A stretch of 64,000 nucleotides of DNA from Sulfuriroseicoccus oceanibius (lineage in GTDB: Bacteria > Verrucomicrobiota > Verrucomicrobiia > Verrucomicrobiales > SLCJ01). The notes under the pieces were generated by a model. The model had not been told where the DNA came from. It made no database searches and saw only the letters and a list, made by a program, of their open reading frames with translations. Below, piece after piece: positions 6,861 to 26,415 of this stretch. A program made the position numbers and the translations under genes. The stretch lies in contig NZ_CP066776.1 of assembly GCF_010681825.2 (NCBI RefSeq), positions 1,488,001-1,552,000 of the forward strand, in the 5' to 3' direction. Positions within the stretch are counted from its first letter, which is position 1, and the number at the start of each line of letters is the position of its first letter.

Positions 6861-8150
6861 TTACAGCGATGGTACGCCGACCTTGTTCTGCAGTGGAGCC
6901 ACTGGAGCCATCTTGTAGATCATGTCGCCGCGCTTCACTTTGCCGTCGTGCGGCATGGTGAAGGTAGAGCCACGCTTGACGGTGGTGCAGTCGATCATTT
7001 CGCCGCCCTCGGCTTCGTAGCGCAGCGATGGAACGTCTCCACGCACGGCACCGGTTTCGTCGCCGATGATGACGTAGTCGTCGCCCACTGAGAAGTCGGC
7101 TGCGGCGCGGGCGACTTCGATCACGCCAGCCTTTTGGTAGTGGTTGGTGATCTTGCCGACCAGCACCTTGCGGTGGGTGGCTTTGCTGTTGCCGCTACCG
7201 GACCAGCCCTGCTGGCGGCCGAGGTAGTAACCGGAAGAGAACCCGCGGTTGTAGACTTTTTCCAACGATGGAATGAGCGACTTGGCGAACTCCTTGGTGA
7301 ATGTGCCATTCTCCACCGCGTCGATGGCGGCACGGTAGGCTTTGATCACAGCGCCGACGTATTCCGGCGCGCGGCCGCGGCCCTCGATCTTGAACACACG
7401 CACCCCGGCGTGGATCATTTCGTCGATGAAGTCGATGGTGAGGATGTCGTTTGGCGACATCACGGTGTTGTTGTCGACGAGCATTTCCTTGCCGGTGTCG
7501 ACGTCTTTGACGATGTACTCCTTGCGGCAGTTTTGCTCGCAGGCGCCGCGGTTGGCGGATGCGTTGGAGTTGTAGAGCGACATTCCGCAGCGGCCGGAAA
7601 CCGCGATGCAGAGTGCGCCGTGGGCGAATGCCTCAATCTCCATCGGACGGCCGGCCACGCCCCGCAGGTCGTCTGCCTGCATCTTTTCCCAGATGCTGCG
7701 GATCATGCTCAGGTTGAGCTCGCGGGCGAGCACCACGCGGTCGCAGAACTGCGCGTAGAATTTCACCGCATCGTAGTTGGAAAGGGAAAGCTGGGTCGAG
7801 ATGTGGACTTCCAGGTCGATCTCATTGGCGATCTGAATGGCAGCCATGTCCGAGGCGATCACGGCGTCGCAGCCGACTTCCTTGGCGCGCTCGAGGATGC
7901 TGCGGGCCAGTTTGAGGTCGTGCTCATAGAGCAGCGTGTTCATGGTGAGGCAGCTCTTTACGTTGGCCTCTTTGCAGATGCGGACGATTTCCGGCAGGTC
8001 TTCAAGGTGGAAGCTGCGGCGTGCGCGTGCGCGCATGTTGAGCTGGGCAAGCCCGAAGTACACGGCATCGGCACCGTTGTCGATGGCAGCCTGCAGCGAT
8101 GCATAGCAGCCGGCTGGGGCGAGAAGTTCGGTAGGCACGTCGTCAGTCAT
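6861..8150 (-). CDS. Peptidase U32 family protein (TrhP/YegQ-like Fe-S hydroxylase)
   Basis: A 429-residue cytosolic protein with the U32 TIM barrel: the N terminus [27 protein letters not shown] is characteristic, and the [15 protein letters not shown] and [12 protein letters not shown] stretches supply the four cysteines of the family. E. coli U32 proteins are now known as hydroxylases (TrhP for 5-hydroxyuridine at tRNA position 34, RlhA for 23S rRNA, UbiU/UbiV for ubiquinone) with a [4Fe-4S] cluster and prephenate as oxygen source in some cases; the overall pattern is nearest YegQ/TrhP, though this is recognition, not alignment. ATG at 8150 is preferred to an in-frame TTG three codons upstream. 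The ferredoxin gene follows directly. Confidence 0.88.
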
Positions 8151-20328: not shown

Positions 20329-21498
20329 ATGGTGAGAAACTTCGTTGATGTTGGTATGCTTGGCAATCCTGTGGATGTAGTTCTTAACCTGGCGGCGTTT
20401 ATGATCGGCGCCTGTGTGGGGTCGTTTCTTAATGTGTGCATCTACCGGTGGCCGCTGGATCTGAAAGTGGACGAACCCAAGCGCTCGTTCTGCCCGAAGT
20501 GCAAGAGCCCGATCCCGATGTGGCGTAACGTGCCGATTTTGAGTTGGTTGATGTTGCGGGGCAAGTGTGGCGACTGCAAGGCGCCGATCCCGGTGCGGTA
20601 TGTGTTGGTGGAGTTGTTCACCGCGCTGGGCTTTCTGGCGATCTGGCTTCACTGGCCGCCTGCGGTGGCGGTGGCGCTGATCTTTTTCTTTGTGTGCTGC
20701 ATGGTCACCCTGTGGGTGGACATGGAGCATTACATCATCCCGGATCAGGTTTCGATCAACGCGGTGCCGCTCGGGCTGCTGGCCGGTGCTCTGGCCCCTG
20801 GATTGTTTGACGAGCAAATCTGGTACCGCGGGTTGATGTGGAGTGCGCTGGGAGCATTGACCGGCTATGTCGTGCTTTATGGCGTGGTGGAGCTGGGCAA
20901 GAAGCTCTTCGGACGCAAGCGGCTCAAGCTGGACGGGGTGGAAAAGTGGTCGGCCCGCGATGGCGAGCAGGGGCCGGTTTTCTCATTGGGCGACGAGAAG
21001 TACGAGTGGGAGGAGTTGTTTTCGCGTCCGACCGACCGGCTGGTGGTGACTTCTCCGGCGGTACGTTTTGACGTGGCGGATGGTTCCTCGGTGAGCCACC
21101 AGGAGGTCGACGTGCATTTGGGTTGGGACTCGGTGCGTGTCGTGCGTGGTGGCAAGAACGGTGAAACGGTGGACGAATGGCCGCTCGACCAGGTGAAGAC
21201 GATCCGCGGCGAGGCGGCTGATGTGGTGATCCCGCGCGAGGCGATGGGCTTTGGCGATGTGAAGTGGTTGGCGATGGCCGGATGCTTCATCGGTTGGCAG
21301 GGTGTCTTCTTCACCGTGGGGGCGGCGTCCTTGATTGGCACCTTGCTTTCCGTGGTGCTGACGGTGGTTGGTTTGCGTGCGTGGACGACACGTATTCCTT
21401 TTGGGCCTTATTTAGTGATCGGGGCTTGGTTGTGGTTACTCTTTGGTTCTGAGTGGGTTGAGGGGTATTTGAAGTGGTCTGGGTTCGGTGGGTTTTGA
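20329..21498 (+). CDS. Prepilin peptidase (A24 family) with a large cytosolic insert
   Basis: A 389-residue membrane aspartyl protease that cleaves type IV pilin or pseudopilin leader peptides and may N-methylate the product. It begins with a GSFLNVCIYRWP segment and two zinc-type CxxC pairs (CPKC, CGDC). The catalytic Asp residues lie in WVDMEHYIIPD and GFGDVKWLAMAG. Between the membrane segments before these is an extra soluble stretch (about residues 180-305, FGRKRLKLDG to TIRGEAADVVIP) making the protein about 120 residues longer than the usual 230-290. No pilin gene is adjacent. ATG 20356 is an alternative start. Confidence 0.9.
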   Translation: MVRNFVDVGMLGNPVDVVLNLAAFMIGACVGSFLNVCIYRWPLDLKVDEPKRSFCPKCKSPIPMWRNVPILSWLMLRGKCGDCKAPIPVRYVLVELFTALGFLAIWLHWPPAVAVALIFFFVCCMVTLWVDMEHYIIPDQVSINAVPLGLLAGALAPGLFDEQIWYRGLMWSALGALTGYVVLYGVVELGKKLFGRKRLKLDGVEKWSARDGEQGPVFSLGDEKYEWEELFSRPTDRLVVTSPAVRFDVADGSSVSHQEVDVHLGWDSVRVVRGGKNGETVDEWPLDQVKTIRGEAADVVIPREAMGFGDVKWLAMAGCFIGWQGVFFTVGAASLIGTLLSVVLTVVGLRAWTTRIPFGPYLVIGAWLWLLFGSEWVEGYLKWSGFGGF

Positions 21499-21800: not shown

Positions 21801-21875
21801 GCGCGATTAGCTCAGTGGTAGAGCAATGCCTTGACATGGCAGAGGTCACTGGTTCAAATCCAGTATTGCGCACCA
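21801..21875 (+). tRNA. tRNA-Val (anticodon GAC)
   Basis: A full cloverleaf of 75 bases. Acceptor stem GCGCGAT/ATTGCGC (one G-T), D arm GCTC-AGTGGTA-GAGC, anticodon loop TTGACAT with anticodon GAC, T arm ACTGG-TTCAAAT-CCAGT, discriminator A and encoded CCA. The outermost anticodon-stem pair is an A-G mismatch. GAC reads the valine codons GUC and GUU. The gene is single and has its own terminator. Confidence 0.96.
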
Positions 21876-22093: not shown

Positions 22094-22738
22094 TTATTTG
22101 CGGCGGCGGAGGATGGCTGTCAGAGCGCCCAGGCTGAGGAGTGCTGTTGATGACGGCTCGGGCACGGCAGTGACGTTGATTTCCATGTAGGCGGATGATC
22201 CTGTGGTGGAGATGCCGCCGGATGGTGCGTTGCGGAGCGTTCCACTGAGGGGGGCTGGGGCGATGTTCCAGATGCGGGCATCGGCGTCGGTATCACCTGT
22301 GCCGATGGTTCCGTCTCCCGAGGTGTCGGAATAGAAAGCGTAGAAGTATTCGGTGGAGCTTGAGATGGTTTCTCCGCTGAAGTTCCACGTCATGATTGCG
22401 TTGGTAGCTGTGTTGGTGACGTCGATTGTGTTGACCGAGGAAGCGACGACCGATGTCAGGTCGGTGGGGCTTGTGAGGAGGGCGAGGTGGATGTCGCCTG
22501 TGGTTGCGCCGCCGCCTGAGTAGCGGATAAACGAGACGCTTTGCAATGCGACCGATTCGGTGAGGGCGTCGCCGCTGGTGGTGAAGCCGCTGTCGTTGAG
22601 AGACGCGCTTTGGTAGTGCCAGTTGCCGCGGTCGGATCCGGTTGGGTTGTTTAGATCTCCGGTTGAGAGGATGGTCGCTGCGGAGGCGGTGGCAATGGAT
22701 GCGGAGAGCGTTAGTGCGATGTGTGTGATTGTTTTCAT
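22094..22738 (-). CDS. PEP-CTERM sorting domain protein
   Basis: A 214-residue exported protein. A signal peptide (MKTITHIALTLSASIATASA) leads into a Ser/Thr/Gly-rich beta-type region with no cysteine. The C terminus VPEPSSTALLSLGALTAILRRRK is the complete PEP-CTERM tripartite signal, recognised by an exosortase (XrtA-type) that transfers the protein to the surface; no exosortase is in the window. The start at 22738 is taken because it gives the signal peptide. Such proteins are usually extracellular matrix or surface components; nothing here shows a ligand. It lies 119 bases downstream of the GntR/LacI regulator, in the same direction. Confidence 0.93.
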   Translation of the reverse strand: MKTITHIALTLSASIATASAATILSTGDLNNPTGSDRGNWHYQSASLNDSGFTTSGDALTESVALQSVSFIRYSGGGATTGDIHLALLTSPTDLTSVVASSVNTIDVTNTATNAIMTWNFSGETISSSTEYFYAFYSDTSGDGTIGTGDTDADARIWNIAPAPLSGTLRNAPSGGISTTGSSAYMEINVTAVPEPSSTALLSLGALTAILRRRK

Positions 22739-22857
22739 GTCGTTACCAGTTGGTGTGTTGCCGGGCACTGTGATTTGGGTGGTGCCGGGCAATCATGTTG
22801 TAGCTGGCTGGTGGACATGGTTGCGAAATGATCGGGCTGGTTCTGAATGGGGACCAA

Positions 22858-23910
22858 TCAGCGGGCGGTTTCGCCTTGGACGAATTCCGGGATGAGTGGC
22901 GTGAATTGGCGGTCGCTTTGTGTGGCGTGAGCGACGGCGGAGGCTACCATGCGGATCATCCGAGTCCCGGTGGTGTAGTAAGCGGGTGACGGGCTGAGGT
23001 AGTCATAGGCGGATGAATACGCCATGCTGATCAGCGATACGTCTTGCGGGATGCGGCAGCCGATGGAGAGCAGGTGGGAAAAGGTGGTCAGGAAGTGGTG
23101 GTTGTTTTGGATTAGAAGTGCGGTCGGGCGTGTATCGCGGCGGAAGGTGTGGTTCAGGCTGGATATCAATTCCGGAACATTGAAGCCATGGCGAAGGATG
23201 AGTCGTTCGGCGGAGGCGGAGGATTGGTCGAGCGCGTCATTGAAGCCGGATTCCGCCTGGCCGGCGCCCGCCAGGGTGGCATCGGGTAGAATGAGTCCGA
23301 TATGCCGGTGACCCATGCGCAGTAGCTTGGAGGTGGCGTGATGTGCGGTGGCGTAGTGGTCGCTGTCGATGGACGGGATGGTAATGCCAGGAAAGCGGCT
23401 GCCGAAGATGATTGCGGGCTGTTTTTGGTCGTGGAACCACTGCTGGATCGGGCGTGGGCATTGGTGGAGCAACCAGATGACACTCGGGTTTGCTTCTGTC
23501 AGTTCGGTCAAGGCGCGTTCTACCGATGAGTGGCGGAAGGCCTGGGTAGTTTGGACATCGACGGTGATTTGGCTCGAGCTCAAGAGGTGGCGCAGCCGTG
23601 CGAGCTGGCCGAGGAATTGCTCGGTGGATTGGTGTTCGGCATTTGGGGTTACGACGACGCAGCGCTTGGGGACGTTGGGGTGTGGCGAGGTCGGTCGAAC
23701 CCGGATCTCGCGTCTGCGTGAGCGATCGGGTGGGTTGATGGTGCCGTCTTCGGTCAGGATATGGAGGGCCTCGCGGACGCAATTGCGACTGATGAGGAGT
23801 TTCTCCGCGAGTCTGCGCTCGCTTGGTAAGCTGGTGGTGTAGACCCCTGAGATGATCATTTCTTTGATCAGACAGGCGGCCTGAGCTGACTTGTTTTGAG
23901 GAAGGGGCAT
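22858..23910 (-). CDS. GntR-type HTH fused to LacI-like sugar-binding domain, transcriptional regulator
   Basis: A 350-residue regulator. The N terminus (about 1-70) is a GntR winged helix (IKEMIISGVYTTSLPSERRLAEKLLISRNCVREALHILTEDG). Residues 85-350 resemble the LacI/GalR periplasmic-binding fold, with HYATAHHATSKLLRMGHRHIGLILPD, a stretch typical of that family. Such hybrids are frequent in Verrucomicrobiota and normally sense a sugar or related metabolite; the ligand is unknown. The frame continues upstream of the ATG, but the extension is atypical. A 7-3-7 inverted repeat lies 82-98 bases before the start and may be its operator. Neighbours suggest it may control the PEP-CTERM gene or the secreted cassette, as inference only. 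Confidence 0.88.
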   Translation of the reverse strand: MPLPQNKSAQAACLIKEMIISGVYTTSLPSERRLAEKLLISRNCVREALHILTEDGTINPPDRSRRREIRVRPTSPHPNVPKRCVVVTPNAEHQSTEQFLGQLARLRHLLSSSQITVDVQTTQAFRHSSVERALTELTEANPSVIWLLHQCPRPIQQWFHDQKQPAIIFGSRFPGITIPSIDSDHYATAHHATSKLLRMGHRHIGLILPDATLAGAGQAESGFNDALDQSSASAERLILRHGFNVPELISSLNHTFRRDTRPTALLIQNNHHFLTTFSHLLSIGCRIPQDVSLISMAYSSAYDYLSPSPAYYTTGTRMIRMVASAVAHATQSDRQFTPLIPEFVQGETAR

Positions 23911-23991
23911 GTGCGAGGCGGAAGTTTGAGTGTGGCGGGCCGGCGCGGAAATCGAAACATACTGGTTCTTATTTGGTACCAGATCGCGTGG

Positions 23992-24008
23992 GTTCATTCC
24001 AAATGAAC
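23992..24008. promoter_or_regulatory. Candidate operator upstream of the GntR/LacI regulator
   Basis: GTTCATT-CCA-AATGAAC is a perfect 7-bp inverted repeat around 3 bases, in the gap between the cassette terminator and the regulator's start. It is similar in size to operators of dimeric regulators. No second copy was found within the window by eye. Confidence 0.4.
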
Positions 24009-24052
24009 GGTCAGCGCTGCGCAAACGGGGGCAATTGCCGGTGGGGAGACAC

Positions 24053-24097
24053 AAAAAATCCGCCGACCTCGACGTGCTGGGCACGGAGATCGGCGGA
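24053..24097 (-). terminator. Terminator of the three-gene secreted cassette
   Basis: A long stem (TCCGCCGACCTC with GAGATCGGCGGA, one mismatch, then CGTGC-TGG-GCACG) followed on the minus strand by six T. It begins 41 bases after the stop codon of the last cassette gene. Confidence 0.92.
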
Positions 24098-24137
24098 CTG
24101 GATGGAGGAGAGGGAGGGGATGACCGCTCAATGCGTC

Positions 24138-25178
24138 TTACTCAGAGGTGCCGATCTGGGCGTTGACGACGATGCGACGGTCGTAGGTGAAGGTGACTCC
24201 GATGTGCTCAACGGGCTCCGGGTCGAGGCCTTCGGCCTGTTGGGTGACGCGGAGGGTGTACTGGCCGGATTCGCCGAGGTATTTGCCGAGGTTGGAAATA
24301 CGGACCTGGCGGGACTGCGGAGCGTCACCGATGACCGTGCCGCCGAGGATCTGGGTGGCGTTGTTGTTTGGATCGATGATTTCCACGCTCCAGTTGTCTT
24401 TTGCGTAGAGGTTGTCGATGTTGATTTTAATGGGATCGAACTGTCGGTAGGTTTCGCCGCCTTCAATCCCGGCGCTGGACTCGAAGTATGCATTGGCGAC
24501 GGGCCAGACTTGGACCGAGTGGGAGTCTGCCATGGTGGCGGAGGCGCTGTCGGTGGCTGGGTTCCAGATGCTGAAGGTTTCCGTACCCGCGACTTGTTCC
24601 CAGTCGTCGCTGACGAAGCCCGAGCTGAAGCTGGCGGGGCTTGCCATCATGGTCGAGAGGGCGGACGAGACGTCTGTGGCGTCGGCGTAGTCGGTGGTGT
24701 AGGCCGACGGATGGGCGAAGGTGTCGGCGGGGTAGGGTTCCTTGTTGTAGAGCAATGTGAGCTGGGTGGCCGCGGCGCTGTGGTAGGCTGGGCTGATGCC
24801 GTCGATCTGAACCGAGTAGCCCTTGTCCACGCGGGTGCGGGGATTGGTCGGGGTGTCGTTCGGGTCTGGTGTGATGACGACGACTTCCGGGCTGTAGAAG
24901 CCATTGACGACCGTGGTGTCGAGCAGCTTTTGCTCAGCGGTTTCGGTGTTGATCGACCAGAGTTCGAAGGTGGCGTCGCCGTAGAGGATGGGGAGGGGGG
25001 CATTGGTCGAGCCGGCTTCGCCCAGATCGTTGAGTGCCGCGCGGACTTCTTCGCCGAACTCGTTGGTTTGGATTTGGATGATTTGGTTTTTGTGTTTGCT
25101 GTCGGTATTGGCGGATGCGGCCAGTGTGGACAGAGCAACAAGGACCAGAGAGCTTGGGATGAGGGGATTAGTTTTCAT
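24138..25178 (-). CDS. Secreted protein of unknown function, cassette gene 3
   Basis: A 346-residue protein with a signal peptide (MKTNPLIPSSLVLVALSTLAASA). I do not recognise a family. The mature part is acidic, rich in Thr, Asn and Asp, and seems to contain no cysteine; it looks like beta-rich extracellular architecture, with a jelly-roll or Ig-type ending (GQYTLRVTQQAEGLDPEPVEHIGVTFTYDRRIVV). Its start codon lies 11 bases inside the end of cassette gene 2, with no separate ribosome-binding site visible, so translation is probably coupled. There is no PEP-CTERM or other anchor. Confidence 0.8.
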   Translation of the reverse strand: MKTNPLIPSSLVLVALSTLAASANTDSKHKNQIIQIQTNEFGEEVRAALNDLGEAGSTNAPLPILYGDATFELWSINTETAEQKLLDTTVVNGFYSPEVVVITPDPNDTPTNPRTRVDKGYSVQIDGISPAYHSAAATQLTLLYNKEPYPADTFAHPSAYTTDYADATDVSSALSTMMASPASFSSGFVSDDWEQVAGTETFSIWNPATDSASATMADSHSVQVWPVANAYFESSAGIEGGETYRQFDPIKINIDNLYAKDNWSVEIIDPNNNATQILGGTVIGDAPQSRQVRISNLGKYLGESGQYTLRVTQQAEGLDPEPVEHIGVTFTYDRRIVVNAQIGTSE

Positions 25179-25680
25179 CGGAGGAGTGGGCGCGTGGGGG
25201 GAGGACTGAGACCGGGTTGTTGTTGAAGGTGGCGATGGCGACCCGTTTGGATTTGGCGAGGTGTTTGCGTTGGCTGGTGCTCAGTGGGCTGTTGCCTTTG
25301 ATGTTGTTCACGGTGACGGGGAAATTGCCGAGCCATGAGCGGTTGTAGCGCAGGAACTCGGACCACGTGACGTAGACGCCGCTTGGTTTGTCCGGGAATT
25401 TGTCAGCCAACTTTTCGGGCTGGGAGAGAACCGAGCTCTTGGGGACTGCGGTCCAGCGCTGGCCATCGTTGAGGATGGTCATCCCGTTGAGCATCGACTG
25501 GTTTTGCTTGGCCGGATTGAAGGCCGAGCCCTTTTGTGTGTTGTGGACTCGTTCCAAATGGGCGGCGCGAGCTTCCAGTGTCTGGTGGGCCAGCTGGGTC
25601 TTGGTAGGCTGTGGGGCCGCGTAGGTGGTGGGCAGAACCGCGGCAGCCAGCAGAAGGGGAAGAAAGCGGGAGGTGCGCAT
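25168..25680 (-). CDS. Secreted protein of unknown function, cassette gene 2
   Basis: A 170-residue protein with a signal peptide (MRTSRFLPLLLAAAVLPTTYAAP). The mature part is basic, with a helical segment after the signal (LAHQTLEARAAHLERVHNTQKG), a GMTILNDGQRWTAVPKSSVL region and the phrase YVTWSEFLRYNRSWLG; it seems to contain no cysteine. I do not recognise a domain. It starts 15 bases after cassette gene 1 and overlaps gene 3 by 11 bases, so the three are one transcription unit. Lack of an anchor suggests a soluble, perhaps partner-bound, exported protein. Confidence 0.8.
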   Translation of the reverse strand: MRTSRFLPLLLAAAVLPTTYAAPQPTKTQLAHQTLEARAAHLERVHNTQKGSAFNPAKQNQSMLNGMTILNDGQRWTAVPKSSVLSQPEKLADKFPDKPSGVYVTWSEFLRYNRSWLGNFPVTVNNIKGNSPLSTSQRKHLAKSKRVAIATFNNNPVSVLPPRAHSSDEN

Positions 25681-25695
25681 CGTCGGGCAGAGGGC

Positions 25696-26415
25696 TTACG
25701 GTTGTTTCTTCGAGAAGGTGAGCAGGATGGCCAGATCCTGGAGGTCGAAGCCACGGCTGTCGTAGTCGTTGAAATCAAAGAGATAGATCACATCGAGAGG
25801 GCCGAGAGTGATGAGACCGGTTTCCGCGCTGACGTATGGTGAGAGGTAGTCTTCGACGCCTTGCTGGATCTCGTAGGCGGGGTCGATCTGAGGTGCTTTG
25901 TCGCCATCGCGCAGTGCGATCACATTGGGAGTGGTGTTCCAGGAGACGTACCAGGAGGTCCAGCTACTTGGATCCGGTCCTGTGCGCAGCGCACCGCGGC
26001 CGGCGGCGTTGATGCTGGTTCCGGCCTCCAGGATGTCCTCGTAGACCACGCTTGATGGGGAGACCATCGGCTGGTTGCCGTGGAAAACATTGACCCAGCC
26101 CGAGCCATTGTGGAGCGAGCCATTGACGTAGTAGAAGGTGGTCTCGGTTCCCCAGCCGGCTCCGACGATGCGGGCTTCGACGTGGACGTCGGTTTTCGCG
26201 ACGAGCGTGTCGCCTTCGAAGTCGATGAGGTCGTCGAGAGACACGGGGTAGCTCACATTCCACGTGAGCGACGGGGTGTCGCCGACGTTGACGCGGTCTT
26301 CCGAGGCTGAGAGGTTGCCTACCCAGTCATTGGCTTGGGTGGAGCCGTCGTTAGCGAGAGCGGGGAGAGTTGCGGCGAGTGCGCAGAGCGAGGAGACGAG
26401 GAGTTTGCGGTTCAT
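25696..26415 (-). CDS. Secreted protein of unknown function, cassette gene 1
   Basis: A 239-residue protein with a signal peptide (MNRKLLVSSLCALAATLPALA). After the signal come VNVGDTPSLTWNVSYP, which reads like the start of an Ig-like beta domain, then VHVEARIVGAGWG and a Gly/Asn-rich central part (YYVNGSLHNGSGWVNVFHGN), and an acidic C terminus with DLQDLAILLTFS. No cysteine is visible in the mature protein. No domain can be named. It leads the operon, with the terminator after gene 3. Confidence 0.8.
   Translation of the reverse strand: MNRKLLVSSLCALAATLPALANDGSTQANDWVGNLSASEDRVNVGDTPSLTWNVSYPVSLDDLIDFEGDTLVAKTDVHVEARIVGAGWGTETTFYYVNGSLHNGSGWVNVFHGNQPMVSPSSVVYEDILEAGTSINAAGRGALRTGPDPSSWTSWYVSWNTTPNVIALRDGDKAPQIDPAYEIQQGVEDYLSPYVSAETGLITLGPLDVIYLFDFNDYDSRGFDLQDLAILLTFSKKQP

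Follow-up and report, generated by a model that had tools for sequence, protein, structure and literature searches.

A trio of exported-protein genes in Sulfuriroseicoccus oceanibius is linked to type IV pilin-like genes in Verrucomicrobiales and may supply an exchangeable filament tip

What is the function of three adjacent genes whose products all appear to be exported and resemble no recognised domain? The question is raised by a 64,000-nucleotide stretch of the Sulfuriroseicoccus oceanibius genome (the window), for which an original prediction, made from the DNA letters, proposed that three such genes, here called g1, g2 and g3, form one transcript encoding an undescribed secreted complex or extracellular structure. 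The three genes do lie in a single minus-strand unit, with a 15-base gap between g1 and g2 and an 11-base overlap between g2 and g3. The features of the locus are the following.

25696..26415, minus strand: g1, exported protein of 239 aa (ORF, alignment and model), comprising a signal peptide, a conserved short segment (residues ~28-60) and a predicted lectin-like beta-sandwich domain (~67-237)
25168..25680, minus strand: g2, exported protein of 170 aa, from a family without known domain
24138..25178, minus strand: g3, exported protein of 346 aa with three predicted Ig-like beta domains
25168..25178, minus strand: overlap of the g2 stop and the g3 start, 11 bases, ATGAAAACTAA
24057..24099, minus strand: intrinsic terminator of the trio (folding energy and pattern scan)
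22858..24084, minus strand: regulator with GntR and LacI-type sensor parts, beyond the terminator; coordinates of the longest ORF, the true start probably lying further inside
22094..22792, minus strand: PEP-CTERM protein (Pfam/NCBIfam), a neighbour outside the unit
20329..21498, plus strand: prepilin peptidase of the A24 family (A24_N_bact 4e-31, Peptidase_A24 1.9e-10)

The N-termini of g1, g2 and g3 each show an n-region, a hydrophobic stretch and an A-x-A end, as judged by eye. Beyond residue 30 none of them contains a cysteine, which bears out the expectation of cysteine-free mature proteins. The terminator is as strong as anticipated: the 121 bases fold at -45.4 kcal/mol, where shuffled sequences average -28.2 (sd 2.9; z -5.9), and the GC-rich stem at about 24057-24099 closes with a six-U run, in agreement with the pattern scan. 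Upstream of g1, a scan for sigma-70-like sites found no promoter-like site. Translation of g3 by coupling had also been suggested. Since the 40 bases examined upstream of the g3 ATG hold no AGGAGG-like site, coupling is plausible, and a recurring overlap would aid it: of the 80 g2-g3 pairs in both locus sets described below, 52 overlap (the overlap being exactly 4 bases in 45) and another 25 are separated by no more than 30 bases, with start sites that are longest-ORF guesses in many relatives. The overlap thus stands, and coupling itself is plausible but unproven.

No Pfam or NCBIfam model matched any of the three proteins above cut-off, as the original prediction had it. Homology to enzymes was absent in Pfam, NCBIfam and PDB sequences, and an enzymatic reading of the trio was dropped because catalytic families were missing from these searches. 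A possible radical-SAM RiPP precursor match for g2 (TIGR04260) reached 16.8 bits against a cut-off of 31 and lay over the signal peptide; a uracil-glycosylase-inhibitor match for g2 (E 0.039) and sigma-factor matches for g3 (E about 0.8) were put down to chance. The signal peptides of g1-g3 are Sec-type by eye, and no class III signal peptide is present (no N_methyl match). The PilY1 C-terminal propeller domain was not found in g1-g3 (Pfam, cut-off), nor was a PEP-CTERM tail (Pfam, NCBIfam), which occurs only in the neighbour at 22094-22792. The identities of this neighbour and of the GntR/LacI-type regulator hold (Pfam/NCBIfam), but the idea that they are partners of the trio is not supported: nothing found ties either to it, and we found no support for a regulatory tie between the regulator and the trio. 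The prepilin peptidase gene lies 2.6 kb from the trio, probably by coincidence; its product may act on the prepilins of this genome. Just downstream of this gene lies a tRNA-Val (gac) gene (21801-21875, plus strand), which accounts for spurious ORFs there.

We examined the distribution of the trio among 288 Verrucomicrobiota genomes by profile searches. Both g2 and g3 occur in 13 of them, and so does pp3, the last of three pilin-like genes (pp1, pp2 and pp3) found near the trio in relatives; the 13 genomes are identical for all three proteins. All 13 carriers belong to the order of the window, in which another 20 genomes lack g2, g3 and pp3; in the family that contributes eight of the carriers, one genus lacks the three proteins in every listed member. 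Two sets of 13, taken independently from 288 genomes, would coincide with a probability of about 9e-23, a figure that ignores shared ancestry; as the genomes are related, such co-occurrence probabilities are not independent. g1 was found in 14 of the 288 genomes, namely nine of the 13 carriers and five genomes of two distant families. In the remaining four carriers, another exported protein, gB, fills the g1 slot.

The neighbourhood of these genes was then compared in two sets of loci. The first comprised all 33 g3 matches from the 288-genome search with their flanks, window included. Here g2 adjoins g3 in 31 loci, the exceptions being L046 (first copy), without g2, and L058, without g2 and without g1 or gB. 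Upstream, 30 loci have g1 or gB; the counting rule scored both as absent in L069 and in L014, the latter carrying a chimeric protein, gA. Downstream, 11 of the 33 loci have two or more of pp1-3, and pp genes are missing in the other 22. The second set was seeded with pp3, for which a profile search of contigs returned 77 loci, mostly from Verrucomicrobiales (Prosthecobacter, Brevifollis, Verrucomicrobium, Luteolibacter, Haloferula, Roseibacillus and Persicirhabdus) with a few from Chthoniobacteraceae; some MAG titles among them read Akkermansia muciniphila. In the testable set of 48 pp3 loci having at least 6.8 kb upstream, both g2 and g3 lie within 7.5 kb in 45 (L094, L124 and L130 being the misses), pp1 and pp2 are present in 47, and a further gene, gene D, in 30. 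In most relatives these genes form one operon in the order g1 or gB, g2, g3, pp1, pp2 and pp3, often preceded by gene D, an arrangement that we presume to be ancestral; Roseibacillus-type loci have a divergent trio in the order g1-g3-g2. The Spearman correlation of protein distances was 0.42 for g2 and g3 (31 loci), 0.68 for g1 and g3, and 0.77 for g1 and g2 (17 loci); none of 999 permutations was as high, and these correlations partly reflect shared ancestry.

These results show that the trio is genuinely inherited as a unit, and its link to a type IV filament (either a pilus or a pseudopilus) is well supported. The alternative that unrelated exported hypothetical genes were gathered here by chance has in its favour that the proteins lack known domains and that lineage-specific exported proteins are common. 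We give it hardly any credence, as the conserved order, the repeated paralogous copies and the shared distribution go against it, and the neighbourhood already refutes it. The original prediction of a new secreted complex or extracellular structure is accordingly supported: the three genes show no homology to ordinary enzymes in Pfam, NCBIfam or PDB sequences and are not distributed independently. Their link to type IV pilin-like genes goes beyond what had been foreseen.

What kind of proteins do pp1, pp2 and pp3 encode? pp2 carries a prepilin motif (N_methyl 21.2 bits at a cut-off of 21.2; GFxxxE 16.4 against 16.3), and a G-x-x-x-x-E motif of the prepilin type, with Glu5, is invariant in the alignments of pp1 and pp2. 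pp3 is larger (some 620-770 aa in the ORF as called), and its N-terminus is hydrophobic, starts from a G and lacks Glu5, a layout that we take to be that of GspK or PilX. The prepilin nature of pp1 and pp3 was judged by motif, no pilin family model matching either of them. Against GspI/J/K or PilV/W/X models, pp1-pp3 gave sub-threshold N-terminal matches only (gspI E 0.071, gspJ 0.23), and no PDB sequence match was found for pp2 or pp3. Thus, pp1-3 are like the GspI-GspJ-GspK (PulIJK) tip in being three consecutive prepilin-like genes of which the last is large and lacks Glu5, but differ from it in that they match no GspI, GspJ or GspK model above cut-off. On the basis of motif, size and gene order, pp1-pp3 would be tip pilins. 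The Verru_Chthon cassette (TIGR02596, TIGR02598-TIGR02600) is likewise verrucomicrobial and encodes prepilin-type proteins. However, pp1-pp3 (from L047, L049, L148 and L114) match none of its models (TIGR02596/02598/02599/02600), and profile comparison with Verru_Chthon cassette-like proteins gave probabilities of 0.9 to 4.4 percent; we know of no trio described with that cassette. In four loci (L104, L114, L045 and L151), a second pp1-pp2-pp3 set lies immediately downstream of the first.

In the window itself, no pilin gene lies beside the trio, which speaks against placing its products at a filament tip. The whole S. oceanibius genome is a single contig of 3.5 Mb. A second complete trio at C1:656789-659045 has the same 11-base g2-g3 overlap and is 55, 51 and 65 percent identical to the window g1, g2 and g3, respectively. 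A third, partial set at 2.88 Mb consists of a g2-g3 pair, the chimeric gA and gene D. The sole pp1-pp2-pp3 set, at 1.845 Mb, adjoins no trio and is 0.33 Mb from that of the window. In all, the genome holds five g1, three g2, three g3 and one pp3, and consequently alternative tips could share one filament, with the window trio as a stand-alone spare set. The genome search also gave four secretin matches and six matches to type IV platform proteins in three genes; platform protein, secretin and prepilin peptidase are all in the genome, none of them linked to the trio or to pp1-3. At two places, C1:2823610-2828091 and 3236703-3245197, a distance of less than 10 kb separates secretin and platform matches, and each place probably marks a type II secretion or type IV pilus cluster. 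At C1:236-239 kb (L006:6604-9154), three g1 paralogues that share 47-50 percent identity with the window g1 stand in tandem, with neither g2 nor g3 alongside.

We next considered the fold of g1. An AlphaFold2 model built from a 24-sequence alignment (pLDDT 81, pTM 0.75) was compared with known structures by VIA-align. The first 14 ranks were all chains of the LecB family, with Z scores of 10.3-8.7 and 106-114 of 113-128 residues aligned. BclA came first (Z 10.3, rmsd 2.7 over 114 residues), followed by CV-IIL and LecB (both 9.7), RS-IIL (9.2), BC2L-C (8.7) and thrombocorticin (7.9); the next unrelated fold, that of C2 domains, scored 5.6. Foldseek alone returned no match at E <= 0.001, and a viral structure library nothing significant. 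D224, Q226 and D227 are invariant across the 24 proteins and resemble, we presume, the LecB calcium loop. The model thus predicts a LecB/PA-IIL-lectin-like domain. g1 shares this predicted fold with the LecB, PA-IIL and BclA lectins but differs from them by an extra N-terminal segment and by having no match to PF07472 (PA-IIL), which is absent from the window g1 and all 24 aligned members and gave no match, at E up to 10, at g1 loci in 15 genomes. LecB-like in predicted fold but without a match to PF07472, g1 is not placed in that family, and sugar binding by it is a hypothesis.

The core of g1 (profile positions about 77-245) is also a domain of larger proteins in two families, f35 and f27. 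The matches, with E values ranging to 4.9e-9, include L155 (2.9e-23), L152 (4.9e-22), L154 and L153, which have GspG-like N-termini (by scan for L155 and L152, E about 7e-4; by eye for L153 and L154). L156 (10958-12250) and L157 combine the g1 core with Verru_Chthon B-like starts found by scan; in a second L156 match (6908-8023), no prepilin start is visible in the ORF as called. Relatives with the g1 domain at L157 have Verru_Chthon B- and C-like N-termini, a further likeness to that cassette. The presence of the g1 domain on prepilin-like proteins elsewhere gives independent support for the link to a type IV filament. The genes at L152:8516-10408, L154:8464-10611 and L155:8480-9769, from distant Verrucomicrobiota families, encode GspG-like prepilins in which the g1-type domain lies nearer the C-terminus.

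A lectin-like subunit is not universal, since gB replaces g1 in several lineages. Iterated profiles hinted that g1 and gB might be one family, which hhalign did not support (probability 2.3 percent). The bridge between them is gA, which joins a gB-like N-terminal half to only the short segment of g1. Used as a profile, this segment finds, outside g1, only L058 (E 0.0077) and gA (E 0.9); shared in this way by g1, gA and the L058 g3, it might be a docking element. At L058:5973-7547, a g3 ORF opens with the short N-terminal segment of g1 (VGDIIAYPAIVHGAHPILKWTTEFPE). A C-terminal tail of the type NNGHGNNxDGVDxSNPG is found in g1 of L101, L102, L113, L114, L137 and L138 and in gA of L014:11750-12778.

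The g3 model (58-sequence alignment; pLDDT 83, pTM 0.69) is a chain of three Ig-like domains. It matched matrix adhesins and chains of tandem Ig or fibronectin-like domains with Z up to 8.6, including SiiE (8.3), RbmA (8.4) and GbpA (8.4); by the structure tool's own note, a Z of 8 is common for Ig-like domains. This likeness to a common arrangement of Ig and adhesin chains points to an adaptor or adhesin and away from an enzyme. The C-terminal domain aligns with RbmA, a biofilm scaffold of V. cholerae, at Z 8.4 with an rmsd of 2.6 over 98 residues. The trio might then be a surface or matrix scaffold, of biofilm or envelope, loosely tied to pili and sharing an operon with them for regulation, as would suit the more frequent stand-alone trios among the g3-seeded loci (22 of 33). 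The perfect co-occurrence with pp3, the 45 of 48 operon links and the ordinariness of a Z of 8 for such domains weigh against a scaffold, which we consider improbable. The g2 family has a conserved core with the motif W-x-x-F-x-x-x-N-x-x-W.

The main rival reading makes the trio cargo. pp1-2-3 could form a pseudopilus like that of type II secretion which pushes the trio out; the trio, either released or bound to the cell, would then capture glycans as a complex that serves polysaccharide use. Type II cargo has cleavable Sec-type signal peptides, as do tip proteins like PilY1; a pilin set with several trios would match several cargos; and Verrucomicrobia are major degraders of polysaccharides in water and soil. 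To our knowledge, though, an operon with I-J-K genes rarely has cargo genes as a fixed part. A non-systematic inspection by eye of the flanking ORFs recognised no genes for glycoside hydrolases or for uptake, and the grafting of the g1 domain onto prepilin-like proteins suggests residence in a filament. In Verruconatronum, a pseudopilin gene is over-expressed on alginate and 67 homologues are present (PMC13274419), which counts in favour of the cargo alternative; on the whole we regard this alternative as rather unlikely.

In the reading that we prefer, with about an even chance of being right, the trio encodes a non-catalytic complex that is exported, binds a ligand and serves a type IV filament, most likely as its exchangeable tip. 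pp1-pp2-pp3 would form a tip initiator resembling GspI-J-K or PilV-W-X on which the exported proteins sit: g1, the lectin-like binding subunit, or gB in its place; g3 as a three-domain Ig-like adaptor; and g2 as a small partner of g3. We infer that the trio would be exported and assembled, take up a position at the tip, bind sugar there and be interchanged with other trios. That a type IV filament is used throughout Verrucomicrobiales, with exchangeable tips (g1 or gB, g2 and g3) docking on one triad, is a broader and more tentative proposal, which we put somewhat below an even chance. If it is true, dispersed spare trios give one machine several ligand specificities.

Known systems offer partial parallels to a tip of this kind. 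Three PilY1/minor-pilin clusters of M. xanthus serve one pilus (PMC7541494), and there, too, exported adhesive protein(s), of large size, are encoded with minor pilins. The trio differs from PilY1 systems in that g1-g3 lack the PilY1 domain and are three small proteins, not one large one, and in having a three-gene pilin-like set plus stand-alone trios without pilins. In Streptococcus sanguinis, the minor pilin PilC bears a lectin module (PMC9934059); the glycan-binding minor pilins PilA-PilC resemble the relatives of the g1 domain in uniting a lectin module with a type IV filament, whereas the lectin-like domain of the trio is a separate exported protein with a predicted LecB-like fold. A search of open-access literature, covering titles and the starts of abstracts, returned no paper describing this verrucomicrobial operon. 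If the preferred reading is true, it provides named parts and an operon for a surface system that the family libraries searched do not contain, accounts for one pilin set serving several secreted trios, and is a further example of a lectin-like fold acting as a filament subunit on its own. Verrucomicrobia carry many pilin-like genes, and the reading would also make a role of their pseudopilins testable, since the cultured genera Haloferula, Luteolibacter, Brevifollis and Roseibacillus carry the pilin-like set.

Gene D, which sits upstream of many pp cassettes, has no Pfam, NCBIfam or PDB match; it has a motif that to us is reminiscent of a double-psi barrel protein. Its product, encoded at L014:10849-11634 and at many cassette loci, is a strongly conserved exported protein of 260 aa with a mean column identity of 51 percent.
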